From a virus: 51,439 nt of DNA. The DNA lies in the IMG/VR virus record IMGVR_UViG_3300020442_002879, positions 1 to 51,439 of that record; one strand, written 5' to 3'. Shown here one piece after another: positions 16,001-32,235 of the stretch. Each line of letters opens with the position of its first letter. The first letter of the stretch is position 1. The notes below the pieces were generated by a model. That model did no database searches and had not been told where the DNA came from. It saw only the letters and a program-made list of their open reading frames with translations. The translations under genes and the position numbers were made by a program.

Positions 16001-19000
16001 AAGATGTTGCTACTATTGCGAATGCAACATACAGCACTAGTTCCAAGAAAGCAGTTGGAGCTATTTCTAACATTCGTATTGTTAATCCTGGTGGATTCTA
16101 TACTAAACTTCCAGTAGTTGATACTATCGAATCAACTAGAAAAATTGAAAGAGTTGACATTGTTGACCCTGGAACTGAATATGCTGTAGGCACATACAAA
16201 GCTGTTCCTATTGCTGGTGATGGTGAAGGTGGATTAGTACAAATTACTGTTGCTGATGGTACAGATTCTGAGGGTGTATTGATTCCTGGTCAAATCCAAT
16301 CTGTTGTAGTTACTACCCCTGGTAAGGGATATACTACTGCAAGTATTGATGTTGAAGCAATTAATGGCATTCTTGGACCAGGACTTACTGGTTCGGGAGC
16401 AGAACTTAATGTTGTTATTCCTTCTTCGGGTTCTGGTGCATCTATTTTCACATTGGGTGAAGAAATTGGTAAGATTAAAAACCTTAAGAATAATAACTTC
16501 GGTTTCGATTATTCTCATGACTACACCCTACGTCCTGAAATTTCTTTCCCAATCAATGCACAACTGACTGCTACAAGTATTCTTGACAGCATCACTGTTA
16601 CCGATCCTGGTTCTGGATATACTCAGGCACCTACAGTTGTTATTTCTGGTGGTGGTGGAACTGGTGCAATTGCTGAAGCAACTATTAAGAATGGTAGACT
16701 ATTTGCCATTGAAGTCAAAGATCCTGGGTCAGGATATTCTTCTCAACCACAAATTAATCTCAAATCATCCTTCAACTATGTTGTAAACCTTGATTTGGGT
16801 CTGCTACAGTTCGCGTTCCCACATGGCATTCAAAATGGTGCTGAAATCACTCTTTCGGCTACTGATACTGGTGATGGCGCAGAATTGCCACTTGCAGCTG
16901 GTGCTATTGGTAGATTAAGTGCAACTACCACATATTATGCTATTGCTGGTTCTGGAAACTCTTTGGAAGGCGATCAATTGAAACTTGCAATTACTTCTGC
17001 AAACGCAGAACTTGGTGATGCAATTTCTTATGTCAATGCTGGTACTGGTCGTCAATCGGTTCTTACCGAATCGTTTGGTGGTGCTGCAGAAGCAAATGTC
17101 ATTACTTCTACCTTCTTGGAAGGTGAGTTAGTATATCAAGGTGATTCTCTGGAAAATGCAACTGCTCAAGGATATGTTTCTACAAACTCTGGTTGGCAAG
17201 TTGGACCTAGAATTCTCAAGTTAATTGATTACACTGGAACATTTGCAGAAGGTCAAACAATTACTGGTGTTATTTCTAAGTCTTCTGGTATTATCTCTAG
17301 ACTTAAGATCGCTAGAGGTGTTCTTGAAGTTGGTTCTATCACTAAAACTACAGGTCAATTTGTTGATGATGTTGGTAAACCCTCTGAAATTATTCAAAAG
17401 ATTCAAGACTCTTACTATTATCAAGACTTCTCATATGCTGTTAAGTCTTCTGTATCGATTAGTGAGTGGAAAGATGTTCTTGTTAGAAATGTACACCCTG
17501 CTTCCTTTAAGGTGTTTGGTGAACTTTCTATCGGTGACTATGCTACAATTCCAAATAAAGAAACCGATTTTGAGTTAACAAAGTCTGTTGAACTTGCTAA
17601 TGAGGCAATTGTTCCTAATATTCAAAACTTTACTCTTGTTGAACCCATTTATAGTGAGTTTAATAATACTGAGATTCTTTTCCGTCAAAAGAGACTGACT
17701 TCTTCGGAGAATATTCTTACTTCTGTTGTTCAAAGAATTGATGATATTTCTGGATTGTTTGATGGTGTTAGAACCTCATTCCCACTAACAGTTAATAATG
17801 GCGATTCTGTCATTGCTAATGCAAATCAATTGATGGTCATTATGAATGGTGTTGTTCAAACACCAGAGGTTGCGTTTGAAATTCAAAGTGACTCTATTGT
17901 CTTCTCTGAACCTCCTGCACCCCCTGCTAGTGTAAAATATGTCAATGTTGAAATTGCACCAATTTCGATTATTGAAAATACATTTGCTAGCACTAGTGGA
18001 ATTGTACCTAGTGTTGGACAAACTTTAACAGGTACTGGATCTGGAGCAAGACTGACTGTTACTAGGGTTACTGCAACAACGGTCAATATTGGAAGTCAAG
18101 AGGCACCTAATAATGTACAAAAAGAACTGATTGAGGGTTTCTTCACTGAAGGTACTGCATTCAGTGCTAATGAACTTGTTCTTGGTAATGCAACAGGATT
18201 CTCGGCATTATTTGAGACTGCTCAGGCAGTTGCAAATAACGGATTATTTGAATTTGGTGAGACTGTTACTGATCTTAGTGGTGATACCGCAGTTGTTGAA
18301 GATATCAACCTTGAGAAGGGTGCAGAAACACCAATCGCTAAGTTGAGATACACTGTAGGTCCTTCGACAACCTCTTTTGAAGCAATTGCTCAAGATTCGA
18401 CTATTAATGCACCTGCTCCCGTAGCAGAAGGAACATTTGTAGTTGATAGTAATTATCAAATTGGTAGTGAAATTATTACAGTCACTGCAATTACTCAAAA
18501 TACTGAGTCTACGACATTAACAGTCACTAGAGCACAACTGGGTACTTCAGCTGGTGGTATTCAGCAAAGCACTCCTCTGTATGGAACTGATATTACAATT
18601 ACTGATGATCTTACTTTAAGTAAGACTGTTGGTACATATCAGTCCAAACCTGGTTTATATGATATTCTCTTAGATGAGATTATTATCGGTGCAAAATCTC
18701 GTGTTGTTGCAAGAATTACGTCTACAACTCCATATACAGATCCTACAACAAATCAGGTTGTTGAGTCTGTTGAGATTTCTGAAGGTTCTTCTTTCTTCGC
18801 ACTTCTGTTCGATAGAATTCAGTCCACTACTTATCCAAACATTGTCCTTGATGACATTTCGCAATCTCAGATTGCAGTTGTTGATTTCACTGATAACAAT
18901 ACAGACTTTAACGTCAAGTTCCCTGAAAATGAAACTATTAATCATTATGTAATTCCTTACGATAATGAGACAGGCGATCTGCAAGATGATGAGTATATCA

Positions 19001-22000
19001 GAAATTATAAGATTGAATATGGTAATGATAGTGGTAACTTTACATCTGGTGAAGACCTTTCTATCCGTAAACTGGCATTAACAAACGCTGTCGGTGATGG
19101 ATTCTTCTCCTTGGGTCAAACTCTTCGCTCTAGAGACAGTAAAGCAGAAATTATTGGATATAATCAAGCACAGAAGACTGTCTACCTCGGAAAGGTTGGT
19201 AGAGTACGTAGTACTGGAGAAGACTACCATACAGCAACATTTAATGGCGATGCACAATTAGATACTGCTCAGATGAAGTTTGGTACAGCATCGTTGCTTC
19301 TCGACGGAACTGGTGATTATCTTTCCATTCCAACTTCTAATGAATTTGGTTTTGGTACGGGTGTATTCACTATCGAGTGTTGGATTCGTCCTTCAAGTGT
19401 TGCCAGTGGAACAAAAGTAATTGCAGATTTTAGACCTACTAGTAGCGATAGTGCTGCATTGTTACTTTTAAGCGGTTCTACACTGGAATATCAATCGTAC
19501 CTTGGTGCTGGTTCTATCACTTCAACCACTAATCTTTCTGCTGATACTTGGTATCATGTTGCTATTTCCAGAAGTGGTTCTACAACTAGACTATTCATTG
19601 ATGGTGTTCAAGAAGGTGGCGATCTTACAGATAACACTGATTATGGTTCAACAAGACCAATTAAAATTGGTTCCAACCTTAATGGAAGTGCAGAATTCCC
19701 TGGACACATTGATGAATTTAGAGTTTCTAACCTTGCTCGTTATACAACAACATTTACTCCCCGTGATGGAATCTTCCAAGGTGATATTAATACTAGACTT
19801 CTTCTTCACTTTGATGGAGCAGATGCTCAAACATATACTGAAGATTGGTCTGGTTCTCAAGACTTTACTAAGGGTGAGGAGTTTAATAATGATGCCATTA
19901 ATGCAACCACAGATGCTAACGGTAGTGCTGTAGTTACTGGTTTTACTGGTAAGACACACAGATATTATGATGCCGCAAATCTTCTTGAGAAAAACAAGAA
20001 TTTCCTCGCAAAGGAAGTTGTATATCTCTTGACTCAGCAGTATCCTTCATTAACTATTCCTGGTGGTAATGTCAACTGTGAGGACGACATTGAGGATATC
20101 GTTGAGGCAATTGTTGAGGACCTTCGCAATGGTTCTAACAATCACATCTGGGACGCTGCAGCACTTTATGTTGACAGAACTGATACAAATGCAGTAACCC
20201 TCAACCACGTTGAGACTGAAATTGATGAAACTGTCTGGGCATACAATAAACTCGGTGATCTAATTCCTTACATTATTAATAATGTTCTCTGGACAGTATC
20301 TGGTTCTCATGGATTGACTCAATACACTGATGCCACAATTACAGATTCTAATAATACTGTATATGGTCAATACACTCCAACTGCAGCAACATATGATGCT
20401 GCAACAGGTGTCATGGTTCTCACTATTGGTTCACACAGTTTGACAACTTCAAGTCAAATTGCTCTTGAAAATGGTAGTATTGTATTCACTTGTTCTTCTG
20501 ATAATAATGCAACTCAGCATAGATACCCCAGAAGTGATGATCCAGCATATGAGAGCGTTCTTAAGGTAACTGCTGTTACTGGAACAACGATTACTGTCAA
20601 TGTTGGTGCATCTCCTGTAGATAGACAGTACACCCACACATTTGTTTCTGCAGATTCTAATGCTGTCAGACTTCTCAATTATACAGTCGGTGATTGTGCA
20701 GACGTTGCTTCTACTGCAGACAACCTGCTTGATATTTTAATTGACACTCTGACAAATGCAGACTTGGCAACTCCTGTTGACCACCTGGGAACTATTACTA
20801 AGGTTTCTCCTGCAGTTGAATATCAAGGTGCTACTGTAGATAGTTTCTATGAAGAGACTCTGCAAGCAAACTATACTGACAATGCAAATGATACTTTATA
20901 TTCTAATATTATTGGTTCTAGTTCTCAGTATAGATTTAAGGATGCTGCTAACTTGATTCGTGCAAATAGAACTGCAATTGTCGATAAGGCAGCGTTTGAT
21001 ATGCTTGATAGATATCCAGATCTTGCTAACTCAATGCCTAGAAATGCTGATGGTACAAGCACTGCAGGTACTGAGCGTTGTAAGACTGATTTGGGTCTGA
21101 TTTTAGATGATATTGCCACTGATATTGAAAAGGGAGGCAACAAAACTGTTGCAACCACATCTAAGTTCTACATTGGTAACAATAACGAACTTCAGCACAT
21201 TCGCTTACAAGTATGGCAGTCTGTATATGCACATGAAAGACTTGGGTATTATGCAAAACAGGCAATCAATGGTGATTTAACCACTGATAATACTGATGAA
21301 TTAATCATTGGCGATTGGGGTATTACAAATGACCCTGGTCAATGTGCTAACGTTCAAACTGCTATTGATAACCTGATTACACTTCTGAATGATACAATCG
21401 CTCCTACAGGTTCTGATTACAATATCGCTGCAGACAGACTTTACTTCAACAGGTCTTTCATGGCAGAAGAGGCAACAGGATTACTCGATGCTGAATTCAC
21501 ATATGTTCTGAATAACATTTCATATAGAGCGTTTGATTATCCAAATGGAAATGCTGGCAGAGAAAAATGCCAGAGAGACCTCAAGTTGATTATTATTAGC
21601 ATTATTTCTGACCTTCAAACTGGTGGAAACAATAGCACTATTGATGCAATTGAACTCTATCTCAATGCAAATCTCCAATTAGACCATATTGAAGAGCAAC
21701 TTGCTGCGACTATCTTCGGTATTGAGAGTCTTAGAACTCTTGGATTAAAAGCAGTTGAAAATCTTCTCTACAGCTCTGGTACAGCGGTAACAGGCGATCA
21801 ATACTCTGGTACATATGCAACCACTTCTGCATATAGAGATGCTTTAAGTATGACTGATGTTGAATCAGTCAAGGCAAGATGGGGTGAATTGATTGATATT
21901 GCAGTTAGAACTCTGTCTCCTGCAGGTATTCCTGGCAGATATGCTTCTCAGCAGATGCTGTTCAATAAAAATTATTATAGAACAGAAATTACAAACACTG

Positions 22001-25000
22001 TTAATAATCAGTTTGGTGCATCTTCTTGGTCTTATGATTCATTCCTTGATGGATTAGTTGATAACCTTTCTCATGATATTATTATTACTGATACTTCATC
22101 TAATAATAGAACTGATGCTAGAAGAATTTCTCTTGAAAGAGAAGGCGTTGTAAACGAACTTGTATTCACTAATGGTGCTGGATATCAGTCAGTTCCAACA
22201 ATTGCATTTGATGCACCTGCAGCGGGCATTACTGCTGCAGCAGTTGCGACTCTTGAAGCAACTGGTCCCCTCTCTTCAATTAATGTTACCAGTGGTGGTT
22301 CTGGATATACTGTTGCTCCTGATGTAACTTTAACAGGCACTAACATTGGTGATGATGGTGCAACTGCCGTTATCTCTAGTGGTGCTGTTACAGCAGTTAA
22401 TTATGATGGTATTGTTTGGGATGCTGAATCTGGTATTGAGTGGTTGCAGTTTGGTGCTGGTGCTGAAATTCAAGATGCTGGCACTGGAACTGGCACTACT
22501 GGTGGATTCGCTGGTCATGGTAAATACGTTAAACTTGGTGCCGCATCTGGTGCAAGATGGGCAATGACTACACGTAGAGATACCACAGATTCTGATATTG
22601 TTCGTATTTACGCTATTGCTGGTAATAATACAAACGGTGGTGAACGTCCTGATAATAGTGAAGACCTTAGACTCTACTACAGAGCGAATGGGTCTAATGG
22701 TAGTTGGGTATTTATCGATAGAATCATCTACGGTGGTACTGGTACTGGAACAGGCAATCAAAATTATGCAAACTTTAGTGATTGGACTGCTATTGATGTA
22801 ACTTTACCTGCAGCAGCAAAAGCTCCAAATACACAGTTTATTGTGTATTCCACAGGTTCTAACAGTCTCCTCTTTGACCATTATGGTGTTGCTAGAATTG
22901 GTGCAATTGATAGCACTAAGGAGTTTGAAGGTACAGTAACAGTTTCGTTTGCAGATGGTGCTGAAGAAACTGGGACTCCAACTGCAGCAACTGCAGACTT
23001 TATTACTCTTCGTGAAGTTTCTGATGTAACCATTACCAATCCTGGTCGTGGATATGATCCTGCCAATCCACCTTCAGCAACATTTAGTGGTGGTAATCCA
23101 AGCACGGCTGCTACAATTACTAACGTTAACGTTGTTCTGGATACCTCTAGATTTACTGATGGTGAGACCTTGACCTCTAGTGGTGGGGGAACTGCTACGG
23201 TTCTTGAAGATACTGGTAACGCAGTTTACATCGGTCCTATTACAGGAACAGTATTTGCTGATGGAGATACGTTAACTGGTGGAACTAGTGGAGTTATTTC
23301 TACTATTCCTACGGGCGGTGTTGGAACAGTCTTTGATTATTATACTAATGTTGGTAACGTACTTACATTCAATGATGCTAGATTGATTCAATCTCCTATT
23401 GCAGACCAATTCTCTGTAACTAATCTCTGGACTAATCCCGAAGCATTTGAAGTTAACTGGAATAGTCCTGATACCACATTTACAGCGAATAATCTTCTTG
23501 CTCCAGATAGCACACAAACAGCAGAAAAAATTACTGCAGATGCTACCACCAGTGAGCATTTTATTGATAGAGTTTATAATCTATCCGCATTTGAAACTTT
23601 TGATGGCACAACTACATTTGACTCTGAAGTTGAAAGTTTCGATACTGGATCGATTGTTGAAGGTGAAGACCAGACCTTTACGACTTCTCTCTTTATTAAA
23701 GCAGGTGAAATTTCTACCATTAGATTTATGGCAATTCTTGATGATGGCGATCCTGGTGAGCAAAGACTATTCTTTGATGTCAATTTAACAGACGGTTCTA
23801 CTGGTTCTATCTTCCAACCTGAAAATGGTTTGGTTTCTTTCTCCACTGGGGTTGTTCCTTTTGGTAATGGTTGGTATAGGATTTTTGCAACCCTTCAGTT
23901 CTCATTCGGTTTTGGTAGTTTGACAACGCGAATCAAACTTAAAAATCCTGCAGAATCGTTTGCTGGTGACGGAACTTCTGGTATTTACGTTTGGGGTGCT
24001 AAACTCAATAAAAATGCAGTTGATGCATATACTGCAGTTGGTGGAGAAGTATTCTACTCCAATACCGAATATAATGTTAAGAGATTTGCTCTTGATTTAC
24101 TTGAAGACTATATCGAAAATGCTCTGGATGGTGTTCTCTCATCTCCTACACCAAATGGTGCATATGCATTCGATAATTCTACGTGGAGAGCAGCGTATGA
24201 TACTGATGAAATTCTTAGAATTGTTAGAGAGAACGTTCAGTTCTATAGAGAACAATTGGACAACTCGACATACTATGTCGATGTAACTGTCAATCCTGGA
24301 ATTACAATTCCTACTAAGGAATATGGTATTGATTATGTACCCACGGGTGCTGGTGGTGGATTAACTACATCCGATTATTTCTATGGTCAATATTCTGATC
24401 AGAATGCAGAACTTGAAACCTTCTTGCTAAATGAGGCACAAATTGCTAAGGTTTATAAGAGGTTCCGTATCGATGGTGACATCACTGATGGACCATTTAC
24501 TATGGGTGAAGTCGTATCCAAGCAAGGTGCTTCTGGAGTAACGGGTGTTGTTTATGGATTCCATGAAGATGAAAATTATAAGTATCTTGATGTTGAAGTT
24601 ACTGCAGGTACTTGGGCAATCAACGATATCATTGAAGGTGCAGAAAATACCACTACTGCTACATTGAGTTCCATTGAAAATAGAATTCATATCATTAAAC
24701 TGAAGGGAACGTTTACTGATGACATTCCTTTCTACGCATACACTAGTGAAGAGTCTGCTTCTCCCACAGGATTCCTGAGAAATGAGGCAGCAGTACTGGA
24801 TAATAGTGGTGGTAAATTAACTGTTGACACTGACACCTTGCTTGGTACATTTGACAAGAATTCTGTCGTTTACTCTAGTTCTACAGAACTTTATATTGAA
24901 GTTCAGAAGTATGAAGGTACGGATGTTAAGATTGGTGATAAGATTATTTCTGGCGGAAATGTACGATTTAGTTTCTCTACTAGCGTAGCAGACTTTACTG

Positions 25001-26298
25001 TTGGACATTACGTCTATAAATTGAATTCTGGTGGTGGTAGAGACATAAGCAAGAGAGCAATTATTACTGGTAAAGATACTGCTAATAATTATCTCTATGT
25101 TGCTCCTATTGATGGAACTTTTGTAATTACTGATTCGATTGGTGATTTTGGTGCAGCAGGTGGTGGTGCAAACACAGTCGCTACGGGCACAGTCGCTACA
25201 GTAGTTACTACTGCTGGGTCTGCATATGCACTGATTGGAAACATTGTTACCGTTGGTGTTAACAAGCGACTTTATCTGACCAATGTCATTGGTACATGGG
25301 ATGCAAATGATTATGTTGTTGGTAAGAATGATTATAGGTCTGTTATACTCGATAAGGTGGTCTCACGCGCCCGCGTGAAGAGATCCTTCCGTGGATTTGA
25401 TGGTACTCAAACAACGTTTGACCTTACGATTAACAATGGCACTGCATATTTACCTGACCCCGCAGGTCACATGCTTATCTTCGTTAATGGTATCTTGCAA
25501 CCTCCTGGTGCTGGTAATGCATATAACGCATTCTCTGATAAGATTCAGTTCGCAGAGGCACCCGATCCTGGTTCAACATTTACTGGATTCTATGTTGGTA
25601 AACTGAGACAACTGGATGATATTTCGTTCGAGTTTGACTCCTTGCGTCAATCCTTCAACCTTAAGCGTGATGATGTTTTCTACTCTTTGACACTGACTGA
25701 AGGTGTACAGTCCACAACCATCAGACCTGAAAATAATATTATTGTTTCTCTCAATGGTGTTATTCAGGAACCTGGTGTTGGTTTTGAGATTGTTGGTTCT
25801 AGAATTATCTTCTCCGAAATTCCACGTTTTGGTTCTAGCTTTGCAGCATTCTCTTATGTTGGTTCTGAAGCAGACGTTGACGCAGCAGAAGTTGTTCCTC
25901 CTGTTGAACCTGGTGATTTCCTCTCGATTCAGGGTGAGACCGAAGATCGTGAAGTTGCGGTTATTGAATCGTCAAACTCACTTATCACATTTGATTATCT
26001 TGGTTCCGTATTCGGTCAGAATGCTGAGGCAACAGCAGTCCTTACAAAGGGATTCATTGAAAAAGTTAGCGTAACTTCTCCTGGTTCTGGTTATACTAGC
26101 AGACCCGTTGTTAGAGTTGACTCTATTAGTGGATTCAACGCCGACATTCGTGCAATCGTCGGCATTGGCAAGGTTGAAGTTAGTAATGTAGGTTCGGGAT
26201 ATAAAAATCCTGAAGTTTTAGTTGAATCTGAAGTTCCTGACGATTGGACTGCTCCAAACCTTGCAGACTACGGTGAAGAACCCGTTGATTATCTCTGA
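7009..26298 (+). CDS. Giant virion protein at the gp7 position, 6,429 aa, with many adhesin-like modules
   Basis: An uninterrupted 19.3-kb frame starting four bases after gp6. Residues 1-65 (LPDFISTEYELFSKFIEYYY) and 690-740 (DFYQTKGTTFSIEYLFKLLY, then a YPKD strand) look like conserved cyanophage wedge sequence, and synteny puts it at gp7 (T4 gp7 is 1,032 aa). Then, approximately: GSGY repeats 314-621 and 1131-1358; YHYH-like 1428-1564; EF-hand-like loop 1614-1625; beta-propeller-like 1828-2214; LamG-like 2218-2441; GSGY 3018-3258; 'NGVVQ' module 3578-3651; second LamG-like 4073-4278; three or more helical repeats 4318-5034; jelly-roll 5134-5301; CBM-like 5473-5678; two 'NGV-Q-PG' modules 6123-6285; GSGY to the end. 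No signal peptide or membrane helix is seen. It is probably a wedge component fused to a receptor-contacting arm. Fold names are pattern-based inference. Confidence 0.8.
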   Translation: MNINKVSNAVSSQLPDFISTEYELFSKFIEYYYKSQEKTGLGQNILNNFLEYLDIDKLDIDILDGATTLVEDISKDDTVITVENVEKFLTENGSIKIGDEVIFYENVSSSPNISFRPGVSYEQVNIKQIELQSPLRSFDGTTQSFALLSEDSPVSPVSANHLIVEVYGEYLVPGIDYTVSGTSIVFTEAPRAVLTSDSADLTSIKYFSGYIENTIFSLNDISASFGDGKTQFKVTRNGEQFVPEIDEYVIAYYDNNLLHPKVDYVFDEDLLIFRGFAPLKGRKLDLFYIDAPIPSFGSNAAAHARINDAGQLESIKIDDAGSSYRFDYPPAIGIGDENGSGGAAKALINGVKNLQLINGGIGYSDTNPPIVNVESPTQDGSTPAKITATVSGGVVTGLTLIDSGSGYTFVPRVTFSQPGGAVVDAPTIVDGSISGEIVVSAKGSGYTTAPEIYIDEPTGDNPIKASFQSVINSDGEITSVTILNRGQGYTTTPRIQVIQPTGAQVLETTVDADGRVTGIELLNGGSGYEDVPSVYIIDDRTDPSTGAYLGGTGAKAVASVFNGRITDINVTEFGTGYSQTSPPKIIIQSPPQASASVEIGINEITGFEILESGTGYSKAQFIGCARAASGITGYTEDGNAIFSRDTTATAHSNNDSISCLDSLFVKRLLDKYKEQFLPDVPELDYKKIDVRTSIKNIKDFYQTKGTTFSIEYLFKLLYGETVDVSYPKDQIIKPSAATWSINTILRATLESGDPRNIQDALIQQEADIADPNVLEASALVENYIAINTANITIYELVLSEETIQGTFVVPYKTRLAEPLGETDSIITVDSTIGWPERNGEFILGGAEVVRYKEKSLNQFIECTRLSPGSIGLNPYVWDSATEVVSNFKVYLNKGTAQEVVMNIVGIVDAQQTNLTDTGSYYLPGDKLTVAKLGGTGEQPLLTTWLYNVKKLIEVEGITFGGVDDRFATVTCTNNHGLLVGDEVTIYGANPIIYNGTFQVTSRDSDTVFQYQLPQTALVTPQGNILVSVNLNKGKSTNTPINNSISSYTTNIQNSFFNDDYIYVASTGIPNYNVGPFVGSALIPGNQRKLNRFVQNPTTISTKNTIKPGPIGTWVNGVSAWSYKSTLSKTFGPITDITISNSGIDYDAASPPTATISGGGGSGATAEVVVNGSVSSISVDTGGSGYTSSPLVSIVGGGGSGASATAIITKGSVSNILITNGGTGYTSQPEITIVGGEGTGATGTASVRGPIKSVNLTSGGTSYTSSPTVTVSSGTGAVAQAIVNNGRIISIAIISGGSGYTTAPEVQIQGVGFGAKARAVIDKEGENAGKVTSVEILNRGINYVQGTTVINLTSVGQDAEFSANVFQWTYNLQESSTFDDSQGSVFEGYNTQYGGEYAHLSNPQRLRYILGDNLIENNDGTIIERETQLNHSPIIGWAFDGNPIYGPYGYSDPTDQSSNITKISSSYRLKTALVLDEITNPNPVRTEGPLLSTDSAGTYVEDYEYVFNLGDLDQYNGRFCKTPEFPNGRYCYFVTIDNTEAGNPVFPYVLGSDFNSVVDSWNLNADATQQNIPRGVVRYRDPYQNVDIDVERTPNASTNSLSLENGDILLFEVEDENRDGVISEDEINDPDQILEEPPLQIFDYFPKVKTESKVDIEVETISRFENASITDFVIENAGSSYQVDDKLIFDNSDTGGSGASARVSRIKGETISSYGYEYRQGVNYGKIVTTSPHTLEVGDTVFVDYSENIETTNKEFDVRQLKGIEEVVVNQTGSGYNEEIPPTIRIDGDGNSGELEAVVDSLGAIKTVNIINSGNGYTTNPRVILSHPQVFKKADYYVAKIANEENVTINDVFVNDSKETFICGRTLDDSGNTVAFVAKLSAGGVKEWEKTLELTSGLNYAEFQRIYVEGNNVWVAGINKPNSTVLNAYNPDIIVAKYIQSSDGLSATLNFQKAYGGISGAQRADNITSIIGTTDNRVIIGGYTNTNSPNPYDAFIGILDSSGTFTVKRKIASSSGNEEVKDLLLDSSGNLYFILETSSTQNASARNFAIGKATITSTSITTTWIKEITNNSYSFLNTSFAIDEFDDIYVTSTLQLKSDNTTRDSFWVGKFDTDGDTTWNYRYAAPGRDINLAPKCVLDIFNELNIAFTRSDNTTDKKTVDIVKLNYKGEIINHTTNDFTQNTVEGITANALIVDNSGDPYIFGQTSWNRNEAVFTFDTDLSDTTTHHTLTTLGLGGSIARDSDGYMKIFGFQTGQSTVFENSAIKIAATSLGNALSNDFTIDFLLYKDADNGNAETLSADQQTLIAIGDAQSATGGLWLYYNTDGTAADGRIELVVTNDTTAFSGASAATGTNTGLFADDTWQLISLRKETNTFKVYVNGLEQISATVAETSLGSKDIHIGNVPGFPNAGGFIEDNQGQFFVDSLRIRNRAATVTAPSDFGNPLVLPAADAVALDHTFADTTWFAQQHARYDYIDYEAFGLKVDKDADAVRKGTFNSNTDSDYGFTRTAVTPVTGTALTLVSTGYPLAEVGFQTLDLSTVITTMSEATESLAYSRDIWSSRTATVPSPGSQKLKVTANVKNRYYFETFNLLKIDNVQELTINQLFNFTVGAKLVLRNGSTFVNSGYITRIDRDNKKVYVAINNNEWSNDVDVYELSTEQFNEQSSFNIVGPVPNDINEIAQTFPDVVNTTPGTFDIDLADFNAPEDVGGTNNLDEYAKFKSYADDDYSVKIVEVSGSSSFVVGSVVTLNSTDVSFNSSRSTVQITNLTGVTKITLVANLSKILQVSAVANSDTVYCVSDTLHYLSDGEQLFIDGNPSQEVSGTVYDEYDGSFPVERVISPIEFTYKLPQAAVSSPATSGSSVSVFVKSPTLKMYYGHQYLFNLGHSSMLGGNLSFAKDPLYKLEYSFNSIERIGTPGVTGQGVPTPTVKFKVTEDVITNISYYFDPSRTGDDSPVIPDSYLDVTFSPYVGTFTVSSTSGGTITSGDNTFQFVLTNQPEDVATIANATYSTSSKKAVGAISNIRIVNPGGFYTKLPVVDTIESTRKIERVDIVDPGTEYAVGTYKAVPIAGDGEGGLVQITVADGTDSEGVLIPGQIQSVVVTTPGKGYTTASIDVEAINGILGPGLTGSGAELNVVIPSSGSGASIFTLGEEIGKIKNLKNNNFGFDYSHDYTLRPEISFPINAQLTATSILDSITVTDPGSGYTQAPTVVISGGGGTGAIAEATIKNGRLFAIEVKDPGSGYSSQPQINLKSSFNYVVNLDLGLLQFAFPHGIQNGAEITLSATDTGDGAELPLAAGAIGRLSATTTYYAIAGSGNSLEGDQLKLAITSANAELGDAISYVNAGTGRQSVLTESFGGAAEANVITSTFLEGELVYQGDSLENATAQGYVSTNSGWQVGPRILKLIDYTGTFAEGQTITGVISKSSGIISRLKIARGVLEVGSITKTTGQFVDDVGKPSEIIQKIQDSYYYQDFSYAVKSSVSISEWKDVLVRNVHPASFKVFGELSIGDYATIPNKETDFELTKSVELANEAIVPNIQNFTLVEPIYSEFNNTEILFRQKRLTSSENILTSVVQRIDDISGLFDGVRTSFPLTVNNGDSVIANANQLMVIMNGVVQTPEVAFEIQSDSIVFSEPPAPPASVKYVNVEIAPISIIENTFASTSGIVPSVGQTLTGTGSGARLTVTRVTATTVNIGSQEAPNNVQKELIEGFFTEGTAFSANELVLGNATGFSALFETAQAVANNGLFEFGETVTDLSGDTAVVEDINLEKGAETPIAKLRYTVGPSTTSFEAIAQDSTINAPAPVAEGTFVVDSNYQIGSEIITVTAITQNTESTTLTVTRAQLGTSAGGIQQSTPLYGTDITITDDLTLSKTVGTYQSKPGLYDILLDEIIIGAKSRVVARITSTTPYTDPTTNQVVESVEISEGSSFFALLFDRIQSTTYPNIVLDDISQSQIAVVDFTDNNTDFNVKFPENETINHYVIPYDNETGDLQDDEYIRNYKIEYGNDSGNFTSGEDLSIRKLALTNAVGDGFFSLGQTLRSRDSKAEIIGYNQAQKTVYLGKVGRVRSTGEDYHTATFNGDAQLDTAQMKFGTASLLLDGTGDYLSIPTSNEFGFGTGVFTIECWIRPSSVASGTKVIADFRPTSSDSAALLLLSGSTLEYQSYLGAGSITSTTNLSADTWYHVAISRSGSTTRLFIDGVQEGGDLTDNTDYGSTRPIKIGSNLNGSAEFPGHIDEFRVSNLARYTTTFTPRDGIFQGDINTRLLLHFDGADAQTYTEDWSGSQDFTKGEEFNNDAINATTDANGSAVVTGFTGKTHRYYDAANLLEKNKNFLAKEVVYLLTQQYPSLTIPGGNVNCEDDIEDIVEAIVEDLRNGSNNHIWDAAALYVDRTDTNAVTLNHVETEIDETVWAYNKLGDLIPYIINNVLWTVSGSHGLTQYTDATITDSNNTVYGQYTPTAATYDAATGVMVLTIGSHSLTTSSQIALENGSIVFTCSSDNNATQHRYPRSDDPAYESVLKVTAVTGTTITVNVGASPVDRQYTHTFVSADSNAVRLLNYTVGDCADVASTADNLLDILIDTLTNADLATPVDHLGTITKVSPAVEYQGATVDSFYEETLQANYTDNANDTLYSNIIGSSSQYRFKDAANLIRANRTAIVDKAAFDMLDRYPDLANSMPRNADGTSTAGTERCKTDLGLILDDIATDIEKGGNKTVATTSKFYIGNNNELQHIRLQVWQSVYAHERLGYYAKQAINGDLTTDNTDELIIGDWGITNDPGQCANVQTAIDNLITLLNDTIAPTGSDYNIAADRLYFNRSFMAEEATGLLDAEFTYVLNNISYRAFDYPNGNAGREKCQRDLKLIIISIISDLQTGGNNSTIDAIELYLNANLQLDHIEEQLAATIFGIESLRTLGLKAVENLLYSSGTAVTGDQYSGTYATTSAYRDALSMTDVESVKARWGELIDIAVRTLSPAGIPGRYASQQMLFNKNYYRTEITNTVNNQFGASSWSYDSFLDGLVDNLSHDIIITDTSSNNRTDARRISLEREGVVNELVFTNGAGYQSVPTIAFDAPAAGITAAAVATLEATGPLSSINVTSGGSGYTVAPDVTLTGTNIGDDGATAVISSGAVTAVNYDGIVWDAESGIEWLQFGAGAEIQDAGTGTGTTGGFAGHGKYVKLGAASGARWAMTTRRDTTDSDIVRIYAIAGNNTNGGERPDNSEDLRLYYRANGSNGSWVFIDRIIYGGTGTGTGNQNYANFSDWTAIDVTLPAAAKAPNTQFIVYSTGSNSLLFDHYGVARIGAIDSTKEFEGTVTVSFADGAEETGTPTAATADFITLREVSDVTITNPGRGYDPANPPSATFSGGNPSTAATITNVNVVLDTSRFTDGETLTSSGGGTATVLEDTGNAVYIGPITGTVFADGDTLTGGTSGVISTIPTGGVGTVFDYYTNVGNVLTFNDARLIQSPIADQFSVTNLWTNPEAFEVNWNSPDTTFTANNLLAPDSTQTAEKITADATTSEHFIDRVYNLSAFETFDGTTTFDSEVESFDTGSIVEGEDQTFTTSLFIKAGEISTIRFMAILDDGDPGEQRLFFDVNLTDGSTGSIFQPENGLVSFSTGVVPFGNGWYRIFATLQFSFGFGSLTTRIKLKNPAESFAGDGTSGIYVWGAKLNKNAVDAYTAVGGEVFYSNTEYNVKRFALDLLEDYIENALDGVLSSPTPNGAYAFDNSTWRAAYDTDEILRIVRENVQFYREQLDNSTYYVDVTVNPGITIPTKEYGIDYVPTGAGGGLTTSDYFYGQYSDQNAELETFLLNEAQIAKVYKRFRIDGDITDGPFTMGEVVSKQGASGVTGVVYGFHEDENYKYLDVEVTAGTWAINDIIEGAENTTTATLSSIENRIHIIKLKGTFTDDIPFYAYTSEESASPTGFLRNEAAVLDNSGGKLTVDTDTLLGTFDKNSVVYSSSTELYIEVQKYEGTDVKIGDKIISGGNVRFSFSTSVADFTVGHYVYKLNSGGGRDISKRAIITGKDTANNYLYVAPIDGTFVITDSIGDFGAAGGGANTVATGTVATVVTTAGSAYALIGNIVTVGVNKRLYLTNVIGTWDANDYVVGKNDYRSVILDKVVSRARVKRSFRGFDGTQTTFDLTINNGTAYLPDPAGHMLIFVNGILQPPGAGNAYNAFSDKIQFAEAPDPGSTFTGFYVGKLRQLDDISFEFDSLRQSFNLKRDDVFYSLTLTEGVQSTTIRPENNIIVSLNGVIQEPGVGFEIVGSRIIFSEIPRFGSSFAAFSYVGSEADVDAAEVVPPVEPGDFLSIQGETEDREVAVIESSNSLITFDYLGSVFGQNAEATAVLTKGFIEKVSVTSPGSGYTSRPVVRVDSISGFNADIRAIVGIGKVEVSNVGSGYKNPEVLVESEVPDDWTAPNLADYGEEPVDYL
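7940..8880 (+). repeat. GSGY beta-repeat cluster I in the giant gene
   Basis: About ten divergent units of roughly 30 codons carry the pattern 'I-x-N-x-G-S/Q-G-Y-x-x-x-P-x-V/I' followed by a Gly/Ala-rich turn. Examples are LIDSGSGYTFVPRVTF and LLNGGSGYEDVPSVYI. The spacing and Gly-Tyr turn suggest beta-solenoid-like stacking. The same unit recurs in other genes of this window. Confidence 0.7.
10400..11010 (+). repeat. GSGY beta-repeat cluster II in the giant gene
   Basis: Six to seven units, more alike than in cluster I, for example DTGGSGYTSSPLVSIVGGGG and ITNGGTGYTSQPEITIVGGE. Each is followed by 'GSGASATA'-type turns. The near-identity of neighbouring units suggests recent tandem expansion. 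Confidence 0.75.
11848..11883 (+). other. EF-hand-like calcium loop inside the giant protein
   Basis: Codons for D-E-N-R-D-G-V-I-S-E-D-E (residues 1614-1625) fit the canonical 12-residue loop D-x-N-x-D-G-x-I-x-x-x-E with all ligand positions occupied. It lies just after the YHYH-like domain in an acidic segment. Confidence 0.6.
19960..22110 (+). repeat. Helical repeat modules (three clear copies, one partial) in the giant gene
   Basis: Copies start near 19960, 20928 and 21424, with a partial copy near 21940. Each begins with a 'D-A-A-N-L-hydrophobic-x-x-N-+' helix, followed by a tyrosine/proline segment and a conserved Cys-acidic helix: NCEDDIEDIVEAIVEDLRNG, RCKTDLGLILDDIATDIEKG, KCQRDLKLIIISIISDLQTG. 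Between them are Asn-rich and histidine-containing connectors. They contrast with the beta-rich rest of the protein and look like an alpha-helical spacer or multimerisation unit. Confidence 0.65.
25363..25378. repeat. Perfect GC-rich palindrome in the giant gene
   Basis: TCACGCG (25363-25369) and CGCGTGA (25372-25378) form a 7-bp inverted repeat around CC. The patch is far more GC-rich than the surrounding AT-rich gene. It encodes S-R-A-R-V within a short basic linker just before an 'NGV-Q-PG' module. Confidence 0.6.
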
Positions 26299-26323: not shown

Positions 26324-27553
26324 ATGGCTAAACAAACACTAGGACTTGGTGCAGCTGCTAATGACAACACGGGGGATACTCTCCGTGTTGGTGGTGATAA
26401 AATCAATGATAACTTTGATGAAATTTACTCTACCCTTGGCAATGGCACCACCTTAGCATTGACTACCGCAAATGCTGCTAGTGGTCATGTTCTTAAGTAT
26501 GATGGAAGTAACTTTGTTTCTGCTGACTTTGGTCAGTTAACAACATCGTTGGATATCAATGGAAATAGCATCGTTTCTACTAGTAATGGAAATATTCCTA
26601 TCATCCCTAATGGGACTGGAGATGTTTTAATTACTGCTGGTGGAGTAACTACAACATTTGAAGGTTCTGATGGGACTGTAGATTTCCCAACATCAATTAA
26701 ATATAAGAATGAGTATACTGCATTAGGTAATGCTCCTGCTGCAGCAACGTATCCTGGTTACTTTTTCACAGTTGATGGAGATGATAAACCATATGTAAAC
26801 ATGAATATCACTGCTGGTGGTGTTGGTGATACTAGAACGGTTTTGTTGACGGAATATTCTAGTGTTGATGACCTTACTGATGTTGATACAACTACAACAC
26901 CTCCTGCAAACGATCAAGTTTTAAAGTGGAGTTCTTCAGCTGGTAAATGGTTACCTCAAAATGACCAGTCTGGTTTAACTAACTTGAATTTGTTTGCAAC
27001 TATTAACGCTGATAGTGGAACTACTACTGCCGATAATTCTGCAGATACCTTGACAATTACTGGTGGTAGTAACATTACCACCTCAATCTCAGGAGATGAA
27101 GTTACTATTGCTTTCTCTGGAGTTGTTACTGATACTTTCGCTGGTCTTACTGATACAGACCTTACTGGTTTAACCCAAGGCGATAATTTATTCTACAACG
27201 GAAGTAATTGGGTGCGTGTAGCAAGTCCTATCACATGGTGGGAACTTGGTGCTGATGGTGCAAACCATTTCACATTTAGTGGTCCTGGTTTTCCAACTAC
27301 GGAGAATGATCCTACTCTCTATGTTCATAGAGGATTTACTTATGCCTTTGACAATAGTGCAAATGGTGCATCTCATCCATTTAGAATTCAATCTACAACT
27401 GGTCTTAACGGCAATGCATATACCGTAGGTCAATCTGGAAATGGTCAGTCGGTATTATATTGGACAGTTCCAATGAACCCCACTTTCACTACACTGTATT
27501 ATCAGTGTACTTCTCACGCCAACATGGCGGGTACGATTGTCGTAGTAAGCTGA
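26324..27553 (+). CDS. Fibre-like virion protein with C-terminal cupredoxin-like domain, 409 aa
   Basis: The N-terminus (GLGAAANDNTGDTLRVGGDK, INDNFDEIYSTLG) is a recognisable phage fibre or baseplate attachment segment. The middle carries fibre-type strands such as DLTDVDTTTTPP followed by a 'QVLKWSSSAGKW' unit. Residues about 305-409 resemble a cupredoxin: a YVHRGFTYAFDN strand pair, His351 in SHPFRI, and Cys395-x2-His398-x2-Met401 in YYQCTSHANMAGTIVV. That is the His, Cys, His, Met ligand set with the C-x2-H-x2-M spacing of amicyanin. Copper binding in the virion is inferred, not shown; a structural domain that kept the motif is the alternative. A late promoter precedes the gene, and the next gene has a related domain. 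Confidence 0.75.
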   Translation: MAKQTLGLGAAANDNTGDTLRVGGDKINDNFDEIYSTLGNGTTLALTTANAASGHVLKYDGSNFVSADFGQLTTSLDINGNSIVSTSNGNIPIIPNGTGDVLITAGGVTTTFEGSDGTVDFPTSIKYKNEYTALGNAPAAATYPGYFFTVDGDDKPYVNMNITAGGVGDTRTVLLTEYSSVDDLTDVDTTTTPPANDQVLKWSSSAGKWLPQNDQSGLTNLNLFATINADSGTTTADNSADTLTITGGSNITTSISGDEVTIAFSGVVTDTFAGLTDTDLTGLTQGDNLFYNGSNWVRVASPITWWELGADGANHFTFSGPGFPTTENDPTLYVHRGFTYAFDNSANGASHPFRIQSTTGLNGNAYTVGQSGNGQSVLYWTVPMNPTFTTLYYQCTSHANMAGTIVVVS

Positions 27554-27561
27554 GGATATAA

Positions 27562-30500
27562 ATGGCAAGAACAGTTCCTGGATCTGGCGCAGAAATTAAA
27601 CCTATCTTTGATAACCTATTTGGTGTTCGTGCCGTAGAGGTAATTAATCCTGGTAGCGGGTATGACCCTGAAGATCCTCCTAGACTAACCATTACTGGTT
27701 GTGGTATTCCAGAAGCAGAGGCATTACTATATCCAATTATCGATGAAGATTCTGGTAAGATTATTCACGTTCGAGTTTTAGAAAGAGGTCGTGGATATGA
27801 CCCATTAAGAATTCAGATTATCCCAACATCAGAATCTCTTGGTGTTATTGATTCATTCGATATCAATAGAGTTTGGCAATCACATCCAAACTCTTCAACT
27901 ACTGGTGTATTCCAAGTTGATGATGAAGGAAATCTTGTTGATAGACTTAGGATTCAGAGTGACAACGATCCTAAACCTGCTGATATTTTAGAAGAGAGGC
28001 AAGGCGCTGGTTCTATATCGGATAGAACCTTTGACCAAACCTTTATTTACAGAGGCGGTAAGCAAGTTCCCTTTGGTCAAAATAGACCTTTTCAAAAAAA
28101 TAAATCACTTGGCATCATGGCAAATGGTGTCTTATTACATACTCCAGAATGGGGTTCCGAACCAGGAGGTGCTCCTGTTGGTTTTGAATTAGACTCTGTA
28201 GCAGAACCTCATGTAAAAAGAGCAGATGTCTATGATGCTATCATTGATAATAACACTTATTATTATCAATCATCTAAATTAATTAATCATTTCAAGACCA
28301 AACATGGTGTTCTTGATTGGGGACTTCATGAAGTATTTACTTGGAGAGTAAAAACTGAAACTGATAATATTCTCGTAGATGTATCAAATCTAGATGAAAC
28401 TATTGGTGTTGTACAAGAGGGAAGAACTCTCATCGAAGTTGGTGGAGATGCTGAGGCAGAAGTTGTAAAAATTGTAAGAAACTCTCAAAATCAAATTACT
28501 CAAATCTATCTAAGAGATGTAACGGGCACATTTGAGTCTGGTGACAATGTACTCGGTTCTAATGGATTTGCATTTACTATTTCTGGAAATCCTCGTACAT
28601 TTACCTCTGGTATTTTTTATATTGAATTTGGTGCAGATGCAGCAGAATTTGGTCCTTTTATACCTGGTATATTTTACTTTGCGCCTGAGAACATTCAGGT
28701 CCAAAAAAACTATGTCATTATTTGGGACCAGTCAGATCCTTCAAATGGAGTATCTGCTGAATTTCCAAATGGACATCCCATGCAATTTAGTACCACTCCA
28801 GATGGCAATCTGAATAGTGGTGAATTGATGTATAACAGCAGTGGTGCTTCTGGTGCCATGGCTGCCGATTATGAAAATGCATTTAGACCTATCTTCATTA
28901 TGAATGAGGATGAGACTAATAGAATTTATTATTATTGTCAGTATCACAGATATATGTCTGGATATGAGGGTCATGAAGGATATATGACCTTGAGTAGTGC
29001 TGTGGAAGATGAAGCACCTGAAAATGATTACTATGTCACTGATTTCTTCCAAGAAAGAGTTGAGATTACTCCTGCAGACTTAGCACTTTCTAGTAATGGG
29101 TATAATCTTAACCTCCGTCATACTAGCTATACTAGTGGTGGTACTGGAACGGGAAGCACAGGTGGATTTAATATTGGAAATCACTTTAGACTTGGCGGTG
29201 CTGATGGTGGAACTGGACAAAGATGGGTAAGATTTAACGTTGATTTAAGAAACGTTGTTACCTTTGATGCTGAGGTAATTAGAGGTAACTGGAGCAATGG
29301 TGGTGAAAGACCCGACCAAGTTTTTGGTGAAGGTCTTCGTGTATATTTTTCGGGTAATGCGTCTTACGGTTCTGTTGAAATTGTTCGTGCTGATGATACG
29401 TCATTTGATTCTCTCAACACTGTAACAATTGCGGTTCCTCCTGCTTCCAGAAACCAAAATCAGACAGTATTCCTGTATCAAAATGGTGGAGATGGTACTG
29501 CAGATAACTGGGGTATTAGAAATATTACTGTTGGTAATGGTGCAGAAGACTTCTCTAGGCATCCTGATGGGCACTCTAAGATTCTTGGTATGTCCTTTGA
29601 TGGATACCCCATCTATGGACCATATGGATATTTTGGTTCCAATGACACAGTACAAAAAGCAACTTCGTCATTCCGATTGAAAGTGGGTGCTGAAATTGAT
29701 GGTGCTCGTGAAGAAGTAATCACACCATCTAATACAACATACACAGTTACGGTTTCTAATGGTCAATTCCAGTATGATGGATCTGTTCCAAATTTCTTGA
29801 ATTTACAACGTGGTAATACATATATTTTCAATCAGGATGATTCATCCAATGATGGAAATATTTTATTACTTTCTAATGATGAAGACGGTTGGCATCCAAC
29901 TCAAAATGTCGGAGACATTGGTAATTTAACTTATCTTTATGAACATCCCAACATCACTTATACTTTAGATGGATCTACTGTAACTTACGCTGCATATGTA
30001 TCTGGTTTCACTGCTGCAACAACCAGACAATTACAAATTGAAGTTCCCTCTAATATACCTAGAACATTATATACATTCTCGTATGCAAATGCTGAATACG
30101 GTGTAAGAACCGTTCAAGACGGTTATTCTATGGGAATGTTGGTTCAAGATTACATTTTTGATTCGACAGTAGGGGACTTAGATGCATTTAATGGTGCATA
30201 TGTTGTTACTCCAGAGTATCCTAATGGAACCTATGCTTACTTTCTAACAGAAACTTCTAACGGTACACCAACTTATCCATATTGCATTGGACCACAGTTT
30301 TTTGGAGCACCTTTATTTGAGGGAGACCCAGTTCCTGCTCTAACTTCTGTTTCTCCAGCAGGTGCAGAAGGTGAGGTCGTTCTTGACGACGATGGAACAG
30401 TCGATTATATAAGAATGACTAAAAATGGTGATGGATATTTTGGTACTGCTGAAGCTAGAATTCTTGGTGGTGAGGGTAGTGGTGCTACTGCTTCTCCTGT

Positions 30501-32235
30501 TGTTCAAACTGTGACAGGACTTACAATTGAAAATGAGGGTAGAAGTTTTGCTACTCCACCAACTCTCGTATTTGAAGGTGGTGGTGGGCAAGGCGCTCAG
30601 GGTGCTGCAGAAATTTCTACTTTAGGTAAAGTTACTGGTATCACAATTACTGATAATGGGGATTTCTATCAAGAACCTCCATTTATTCTTATTGATGGTG
30701 GCGGTGGTGCTGGTGCTAGTGCTACTGCACAGATTGACCAGGGTCAAATTAGTTCTATTACAATCAACGACCCAGGACAAGGATATGTTAATCCACCAAA
30801 CATCATCTTCACTAAGTTAATTAACTTAAAGAGAAAAACAAGATCTAGACAGTCCTTTAATTCTCAATTCCAATATCTTACAGGACTAACAAAAACTAGT
30901 GGAGCAGCAGATACTGAGATTTTTGTCAGTTCTACTGAAGCTTTCCCTGGTTCTGGTTCTTTTATCCTCAATAATGAAATTGTTACTTATACAGGTAAAT
31001 CGACAGGCAAATTTACAGGTTTGACTAGAGGGACAAACTTTAACTATGACCAAAGAGTTATTTTAGATTCCACTCAAGATGTTGGAGGAGTTTCTCCATA
31101 TCAGTTTAATGTTGGAGATGTTGTTATAAGAAGAGTTGAAAGTGCCAACAATAAAATTGCAAGAGTATATGATTGGAATCCAAATACAAAAGAATTACTT
31201 GTAACTTTTGAAATTGATGAACTTGCATTTATTGATGCTGGATTTGCTGTTACTGAAGATGCAATTGTTCAATTTGATGCAGGATTGCCCGATTCTACAA
31301 CTTCATCGCAACTTCCACATACAACGATTGTTTCTATAGGTGACGAAATTGTAACCTTGACTGTTCCTATTTCATCAATTCAAGATAGAACATTTGAAGA
31401 TGATGATGAAAACGAAGACCCCGATAATCCTGGTGTTTTCTTAGGTGATGGAATTCCAGACCTAATTAACACTGGTACTGATTATGCGGGTCAGATTAAT
31501 CTTGACGGCGGACTTTACAATTCCTTATATGGTATTGAAGAAACTCAAGGCGGAACAAACACAACTCTGTTTGCTGTTGGTGATAGTGTCTTTGATGCAA
31601 CTCCATTCCCAAATCAAAAAACTCCTACGATTACTATAGCAGGTGGTCTTTCTGAGGGTGTTGAGCATGTTGCTCAAGTTAGAATTACTATTGACAAAAC
31701 AAATGGAAACGGCACAAACTTTGGTGTCAATGAAATTGTGACTGGATCTATTTCTGGTGTAAGTGGAACAGTAGTTTCTTGGGACAGTACTGCAGGAGTG
31801 TTAGTTGTTAAAGATATTGTTCCTTTCAATACTGGTAATGTTAACAAAGGTGTTAATGGATATCTGAATGAATTTTCTTCTAAGGGGACAATTGTTGATA
31901 TTGTAGTTCAAGAACCAGGAATAAACTATTCTGCTGTTCCTACAGTCACAATTGAAGATGATGGTGATTTGCAAGCAACTGCTACAGCGGTGTTAACAAC
32001 AGCAGGAGACCAGATAGCATCCCTCACCATTACTAATGGTGGATATGGTTATGAACAGTATGTAGAAACGGGAACATTACATCCAACAATTACATTTACA
32101 AATGCTGTAGGAGACACGACTGGTTCTGGTGCTGTAGCATATGCTATTTTGGGTGGGGAAAATATTGTAGGTAATGCTGGTGCATCTTATCGAATTAAGA
32201 GCCTCGAATATCTTACGGTTGTACAAACCTCATAA
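27562..32235 (+). CDS. Large virion structural protein with YHYH and cupredoxin-like domains, 1,557 aa
   Basis: The start has GAGG at 27552-27555, six bases upstream. Two GSGY-type units open the protein. Residues about 360-480 look cupredoxin-like, with His405 (NGHPMQF) and Cys459-x2-His462-x2-Met465 (YYYCQYHRYMSG). Residues about 499-664 form a Gly-rich jelly-roll-like module (NGGERPD). A YHYH-like domain follows (about 663-914: GMSFDGYPIYGPYGYFG and EYPNGTYAYFLT), interrupted at 719-840 by a cupredoxin-like segment lacking Cys and Met ligands. Further GSGY units follow near 950-1090, then an acidic D/N/G-rich stretch near residue 1280 and GETVTG-type modules. It sits between the gp7-position gene and gp8, so it is probably a baseplate-attached protein. 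Confidence 0.75.
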   Translation: MARTVPGSGAEIKPIFDNLFGVRAVEVINPGSGYDPEDPPRLTITGCGIPEAEALLYPIIDEDSGKIIHVRVLERGRGYDPLRIQIIPTSESLGVIDSFDINRVWQSHPNSSTTGVFQVDDEGNLVDRLRIQSDNDPKPADILEERQGAGSISDRTFDQTFIYRGGKQVPFGQNRPFQKNKSLGIMANGVLLHTPEWGSEPGGAPVGFELDSVAEPHVKRADVYDAIIDNNTYYYQSSKLINHFKTKHGVLDWGLHEVFTWRVKTETDNILVDVSNLDETIGVVQEGRTLIEVGGDAEAEVVKIVRNSQNQITQIYLRDVTGTFESGDNVLGSNGFAFTISGNPRTFTSGIFYIEFGADAAEFGPFIPGIFYFAPENIQVQKNYVIIWDQSDPSNGVSAEFPNGHPMQFSTTPDGNLNSGELMYNSSGASGAMAADYENAFRPIFIMNEDETNRIYYYCQYHRYMSGYEGHEGYMTLSSAVEDEAPENDYYVTDFFQERVEITPADLALSSNGYNLNLRHTSYTSGGTGTGSTGGFNIGNHFRLGGADGGTGQRWVRFNVDLRNVVTFDAEVIRGNWSNGGERPDQVFGEGLRVYFSGNASYGSVEIVRADDTSFDSLNTVTIAVPPASRNQNQTVFLYQNGGDGTADNWGIRNITVGNGAEDFSRHPDGHSKILGMSFDGYPIYGPYGYFGSNDTVQKATSSFRLKVGAEIDGAREEVITPSNTTYTVTVSNGQFQYDGSVPNFLNLQRGNTYIFNQDDSSNDGNILLLSNDEDGWHPTQNVGDIGNLTYLYEHPNITYTLDGSTVTYAAYVSGFTAATTRQLQIEVPSNIPRTLYTFSYANAEYGVRTVQDGYSMGMLVQDYIFDSTVGDLDAFNGAYVVTPEYPNGTYAYFLTETSNGTPTYPYCIGPQFFGAPLFEGDPVPALTSVSPAGAEGEVVLDDDGTVDYIRMTKNGDGYFGTAEARILGGEGSGATASPVVQTVTGLTIENEGRSFATPPTLVFEGGGGQGAQGAAEISTLGKVTGITITDNGDFYQEPPFILIDGGGGAGASATAQIDQGQISSITINDPGQGYVNPPNIIFTKLINLKRKTRSRQSFNSQFQYLTGLTKTSGAADTEIFVSSTEAFPGSGSFILNNEIVTYTGKSTGKFTGLTRGTNFNYDQRVILDSTQDVGGVSPYQFNVGDVVIRRVESANNKIARVYDWNPNTKELLVTFEIDELAFIDAGFAVTEDAIVQFDAGLPDSTTSSQLPHTTIVSIGDEIVTLTVPISSIQDRTFEDDDENEDPDNPGVFLGDGIPDLINTGTDYAGQINLDGGLYNSLYGIEETQGGTNTTLFAVGDSVFDATPFPNQKTPTITIAGGLSEGVEHVAQVRITIDKTNGNGTNFGVNEIVTGSISGVSGTVVSWDSTAGVLVVKDIVPFNTGNVNKGVNGYLNEFSSKGTIVDIVVQEPGINYSAVPTVTIEDDGDLQATATAVLTTAGDQIASLTITNGGYGYEQYVETGTLHPTITFTNAVGDTTGSGAVAYAILGGENIVGNAGASYRIKSLEYLTVVQTS

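Follow-up and report, generated by a model that had tools for sequence, protein, structure and literature searches.

The gp9-type gene and its neighbours

The window, by which we mean the whole stretch of 51,439 nucleotides of viral DNA analysed here, carries a 409-aa ORF followed by further baseplate genes:

26324..27553, plus strand: gp9-type baseplate wedge/long tail fibre connector, 409 aa (phrog_677, 6e-186)
26330..26626, plus strand: T4 gp9/10-like N-terminal module (Pfam PF07880, T4_gp9_10_N, residues 3-101, 1.9e-9)
27562..32235, plus strand: gp10-type baseplate wedge protein, 1557 aa (phrog_708, E-value 0, residues 1-1556)

The family phrog_677, described as 'baseplate wedge tail fiber protein connector', covers residues 1-408 of the 409, and the ORFs that follow match phrog_708 (gp10-type) and then phrog_438/Pfam Phage-Gp8 (gp8-type wedge). 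The protein shares with T4 gp9 and phrog_677 the N-terminal module and the gene order gp9-gp10-gp8; this order, together with the full-length phrog_677 match, is what characterizes a T4 gp9-type connector. The first-pass annotation had described the ORF as a phage baseplate protein, a description borne out by both phrog_677 and the Pfam module. Its source is a virus infecting marine cyanobacteria, and the protein is part of the tail baseplate. In a tblastn search with the whole 409-aa protein, 323 of 50,697 INPHARED phage records matched at E<=1e-5, with names beginning with Synechococcus (247), Cyanophage (50), Prochlorococcus (19), Methylophilales (4) and Marine (3), and the C-terminal domain alone matched 357 INPHARED records at E<=1.

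A C-terminal domain with a predicted cupredoxin fold

The features of interest lie at the C-terminal end of the gp9-type protein:

27224..27550, plus strand: C-terminal cupredoxin domain, residues 301-409 (AlphaFold2 model, VIA-align, profile match to amicyanin)
27374..27376, plus strand: His351, putative first copper ligand (His in 50/50 alignment rows and 61/61 non-redundant domains)
27506..27508, plus strand: Cys395, putative thiolate ligand (sole Cys of the protein; Cys in 61/61 non-redundant domains)
27515..27517, plus strand: His398, putative ligand (His in 61/61 non-redundant domains)
27524..27526, plus strand: Met401, putative axial ligand (Met in 60/61 non-redundant domains, Gln in 1)

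His351 and the Cys395-x2-His398-x2-Met401 loop, which the first-pass annotation had named, were all found where it placed them, in the context YYQCTSHANMAG. The domain start quoted there, 27230, corresponds to residue 303, and the predicted domain begins at about residue 301. The copper ligands of amicyanin are tabulated as His53, Cys92, His95 and Met98 (PMC517927), and the loop spacing claimed for the phage protein agrees with the 92/95/98 positions of that table.

AlphaFold2 gave a weak overall model of the whole gp9-type protein (mean pLDDT 73.8, pTM 0.37), within which a block of pLDDT 85-95 runs from about residue 301 onward. Residues 301-409 are thus predicted with high confidence to adopt the cupredoxin fold, of which an eight-stranded Greek-key beta sandwich is the hallmark. 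VIA-align matched residues 301..409 to nitrite reductase 2dv6 (residues 24..132) at Z 10.6, with 2.0 Å over 92 residues and 22% identity; rusticyanin aligned with Z 8.4-9.6. The N-terminal cupredoxin of three-domain nitrite reductases (2dv6, 6tfo) and rusticyanin are the best structural neighbours, at Z 8.4-10.6 and about 2 Å over 92-93 residues; they differ from the phage domain in their enzymatic or respiratory setting, and rusticyanin differs also in its longer loop, C138, H143 and M148 (PMC517927). A Foldseek search against the PDB returned 772 matches, of which the best 50 were all copper proteins of cupredoxin fold, led by a nitrite reductase (E 5.6e-4) and including amicyanin (1.1e-3), with 1 of the 772 at or below 0.001. 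Among structural matches to the gp9 model in BFVD were A0A481Z6J5 and A0A481YVH3, beta-sandwich proteins of giant viruses (Pithovirus, Marseillevirus).

The window's domain sequence alone matched no Pfam family at E<=1 and no cupredoxin family in NCBIfam, and against the PDB it matched only 2vmj (E 0.029), an engineered nitrite reductase with an amicyanin loop whose title names the loop swap. Direct assignment from the single sequence fails because the sequence is too divergent. A profile built from 13 domains, searched against PDB sequences, gave 45 matches; amicyanin was the best (E 2.3e-4), and nitrite reductases, plastocyanins, pseudoazurin and rusticyanin were also present. In the HMM alignments with amicyanin the Cys/His/Met loop is in register and the first His lies two residues off amicyanin His53; in one nitrite reductase alignment, the first His of the gp9 domain falls on a His. 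Computation shows that residues 301-409 are homologous to copper cupredoxins and have their predicted fold.

The first-pass annotation had called the ligand set amicyanin-type and had looked to structure prediction for confirmation. Loop spacing and a predicted cupredoxin fold uphold that description; membership of the amicyanin family does not. Like amicyanin (1AAC and others), the phage domain has a Cys-x2-His-x2-Met loop of equal length within a predicted cupredoxin fold, with Y-x-C ahead of the loop and M-x-G after it. The gp9 domain differs in belonging to a virion protein and in having Pro after the first His, where amicyanin has Asn (PHNVH). Across 61 non-redundant domains, this residue is Pro in 57, Ala in 3 and Gln in 1; in cupredoxins generally, Asn is known to follow the first His ligand. 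At E<=10, nothing in this record matches the NCBIfam amicyanin family TIGR02657 (curated cut-off 110.2 bits); of the 13 domain sequences, 8 give weak matches to it (best 0.0074), and the window's own domain is not one of these. We therefore rejected amicyanin proper as a family assignment, both because TIGR02657 is unmatched and because Pro replaces Asn after the His.

Conservation of the ligand set

Three of the locus scans used the ligand loop as a pattern (as the sole pattern, as one of six, or in part), so that counts including loci from those scans lean towards the motif. This is not so for a search of viral contigs queried with residues 1-292 only, which yielded 80 loci: Cys-x2-His-x2-Met is kept in 75 of 75 complete ORFs, the other 5 of the 80 being cut by a contig end. 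In 20 of these loci (L232-L251) the query match is limited to the N-terminal 44 residues, and the proteins, 216-224 aa from stop to stop, consist of the gp9 N-terminal anchor and the cupredoxin domain alone.

In an alignment of 50 homologues, H351, C395, H398 and M401 are invariant. A profile search over all fetched loci gave 320 matches, from which 44 with less than 75% coverage were dropped; 273 of the 276 kept have all four ligands and 3 have Gln for Met; because the set holds profile matches only, degenerate copies were less likely to appear in it. Among the 44 dropped matches, 36 have all four residues, 2 have the Cys, His and Met with the first position gapped, and 6 have no letters at the loop. 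Reduction to less than 80% identity left 61 domains with a median pairwise identity of 34%, in which the first His, the Cys and the second His are each present in 61 of 61 and the fourth position is Met in 60 and Gln in 1. The first-pass annotation had proposed conservation of the four ligands as one check, and free substitution of Cys or His among homologues, which would have told against it, does not occur in this set. Stellacyanin, umecyanin and auracyanin naturally have Gln as their axial ligand (PMC517927).

Ranked by conservation, the top five of the 103 domain columns are the His, Cys, His and Met and one Tyr (61/61), two residues before the Cys. Fourteen domains that include one Bacteroidota cellular protein have 7 invariant columns, 4 of which are the ligands. 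In the 61 domains, the codons of the first His are CAT in 33 and CAC in 28, those of the Cys TGT in 39 and TGC in 22, and those of the second His CAT in 37 and CAC in 24. Since the ligand codons vary synonymously, the constraint acts at the protein level. The gp9-type protein has one Cys in 49 of 50 homologues and three in the other; an intrachain disulfide is therefore excluded in those 49, and we rejected it as the role of C395 there, while an interchain bond may remain.

A second putative ligand set in the gp10-type protein

Two regions of the adjacent gp10-type protein resemble the gp9 domain:

28618..29007, plus strand: gp10 domain 1, probable cupredoxin-like, H405/C459/H462/M465 (gp9-domain profile, hhalign)
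29764..30102, plus strand: gp10 domain 2, probable degenerate copy in which the Cys/His/Met loop is missing (weak partial profile matches, E 0.05 and 1.1)

The gp9-domain profile matches gp10 domain 1 at 28768-28962 (E 6.1e-5), and hhalign aligned it with the gp9-domain alignment at 91% probability with HP and Cys-x2-His-x2-Met in register. His, Cys, His and Met are present in 156 of 156 rows that have letters there, 2 of the 158 rows being gapped; the first-pass annotation had overlooked this second set. The AlphaFold2 model of the domain has a pLDDT of 94.7; in VIA-align a purple cupredoxin came first, at only Z 3.9 and amid Ig-like entries, and no cupredoxin stood among the best 50 Foldseek matches listed. 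Searched against the PDB, a profile of gp10 domain 1 itself matched only five antibody chains, with E-values from 0.35 upwards. We regard gp10 domain 1 as a probable cupredoxin-like domain, short of a proven cupredoxin.

In gp10 domain 2, the Cys column of the 158 rows holds Ala, Ser or Gly in 155, Cys in 2 and Thr in 1, and the intact motif occurs only in S-SSM4 and S-ShM2 (L081, L082). A related domain has lost the Cys, His and Met yet persists, so the fold by itself probably does not explain why gp9 has kept its ligands. This weakens the alternative, raised in the first-pass annotation, that the ligand set is kept by structure alone.

Other features of gp10-type proteins were also observed. 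Three gp10 ORFs (L157, L158 and L079) contain an extra cupredoxin-like domain with Cys-x2-His-x2-Gln, Gln taking the place of Met, and in L157 this extra domain is nested inside gp10 domain 1. The gp10-type protein of the window also has a YHYH domain at 30088-30264 (Pfam PF14240, 1.8e-15, best stretch residues 843-901).

Distribution among phages and other sequences

Among the matches listed, T4-like phages with enterobacterial and other non-marine hosts differ from the marine phages in matching only the N-terminal 41-44 residues of the gp9-type protein and nothing of the cupredoxin domain. To judge from these sequence matches, the domain therefore looks like an addition to gp9 in marine lineages.

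The domain is not confined to gp9. Twenty of 21 further loci that were read carry the loop: it is found, among other places, on tail fibres of P-SSM2, Bellamy, the Pelagibacter phages Mosig and Baldr, the Methylophilales phage Melnitz and the podovirus P-GSP1, and also in a protein of S-BM3 annotated as an S8 peptidase and in a lipoprotein-like protein of Marinifilum. The twenty-first, in S-CAM1 (L263), has no loop in the matched stretch: the first half of the domain gives way to other sequence, and immediately upstream there is a loop-like segment, WYQCTAHPNM. The domains of this locus look interrupted, as if other sequence had been inserted.

No relative turned up when genome contigs were scanned with the P-SCSP2 domain; a further scan of them gave four loci (L252-L255). 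Three of the four (L252, L254 and L255) look like phage tail proteins in bacterial assemblies. The fourth, L253 of Marinifilum caeruleilacunae, has HPF and YYQCSSHPKM, and so the same loop as the gp9 domain; it differs in being a cellular, single-domain protein of 155 aa with a hydrophobic leader and a Cys that resemble a lipoprotein signal. L253 is a possible cellular source of the cupredoxin domain.

In the window itself, a 6429-aa ORF at 7009-26298 contains many repeats of the G-x-G-Y type, and a stretch of it at 15565-15831 gives a weak cupredoxin-like match (E 0.006) without the loop. In the cryo-EM study of P-SCSP1u, the distal fibres are not resolved, and copper appears, in the text available from that source, only as grid material (PMC10575957).

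Discussion

In this study, we sought to establish what the C-terminal domain of a marine phage gp9-type protein is, and we judge it to be a real type-1-copper-like cupredoxin module in the adhesion machinery of marine phages. Electron carriers and oxidases are known to contain type-1 copper centres, and to our knowledge no tailed-phage adhesion machine has been described with one. Among the openly licensed papers listed by our searches we found no report of this domain, and an earlier mention elsewhere is possible. The passages on plastocyanin in papers on T4-like genes of cyanophages concern the metabolic gene petE (PMC3037559, PMC2984593).

His351, which precedes a beta strand, and Cys395-x2-His398-x2-Met401, in a loop of amicyanin length, would together make up a type-1 copper ligand set, and copper binding at this predicted site is likely. 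We favour, with somewhat better than even confidence, a model in which residues 301-409 form a cupredoxin domain that has all four type-1 ligands and uses copper as a structural or regulatory lock. T4 gp9 is a trimer present in 18 copies, with the long tail fibres joined coaxially to the C-terminal domain (PMC3004832). Each gp9 chain would bind one copper and, by analogy with T4, up to 18 copper sites could lie round the baseplate at the fibre socket. The metal may close and stiffen the distal end of the domain, the outer face of which may dock the tail fibre or touch the host surface; these are, with the role of the copper, the steps of which we are least sure. That role would be mainly to lock the adhesion module of marine phages, structurally or in a regulatory sense, and not to serve an electron-transfer chain. 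A lock is the likeliest role because the domain is a module found on many adhesion proteins, in phages of phototrophic as well as heterotrophic hosts.

The site could instead be redox-active, with cycling between Cu(I) and Cu(II) at gp9 (and gp10) sensing the host surface or its photosynthetic state and helping to trigger the baseplate, which we consider unlikely. The ligand set is indeed that of electron-transfer cupredoxins (PMC517927), and T4 gp9 binds the gp10 C-terminal domain upon fibre engagement and baseplate triggering (PMC3004832), which is of interest given that both proteins here have an invariant His/Cys/His/Met set. However, the domain is present too on phages of heterotrophic hosts (Pelagibacter, Methylophilales), and in gp10 the domain sits within the first third of the protein, towards the N-terminus, whereas T4 uses the gp10 C-terminal domain.

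Phage tails are assembled in the cytoplasm, where free copper is scarce, and Cys/His/His/Met can bind Zn. Both points speak for a site that holds Zn or another metal in vivo and is purely structural. Such a site seems improbable to us, since its structural neighbours are copper proteins and the sole departure at the axial position, Met to Gln, is a natural type-1 copper alternative (PMC517927). A more elaborate proposal is that the baseplate of marine phages is loaded with copper and acts as a redox- or metal-gated trigger, its type-1 sites in gp9 and gp10 answering to copper or redox state at the host surface and helping to release the switch. This is a long shot; it would involve up to about 36 copper sites per virion if gp9 and gp10 were both present in 18 copies.

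Conservation of a residue is not equal to metal binding, and the four residues might be held constant by the demands of the fold or of a protein interface, with no metal at all. We hold this to be very unlikely: gp10 domain 2 can do without the loop residues, the four ligand columns rank above almost all core positions, and a single Cys allows no intrachain disulfide. Finally, translation of the window in six frames gives four instances of Cys-x2-His-x2-Met, two of them outside the gp9 and gp10 frames (one of these running across a stop), but a chance motif in an unrelated beta domain is rejected as extremely improbable in view of the profile, fold and conservation results, with ligand columns near-invariant across the 61 non-redundant domains.

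The gp9 domain is found on T4-like cyanophages, which are among the commonest viruses of the ocean. The domain is predicted to be built like the blue copper proteins that serve as cellular electron carriers, and its four putative metal-holding residues are kept across very divergent relatives; this suggests that viruses with this gp9 domain bear copper at the site on the virion from which infection is set off. If copper is bound, there would be several copper sites per virion, adsorption could depend on copper or on redox state, and the site would offer a testable molecular handle on the triggering of cyanophages. For part of a set of proteins annotated only as baseplate or hypothetical, the analysis provides a fold and a testable chemistry.
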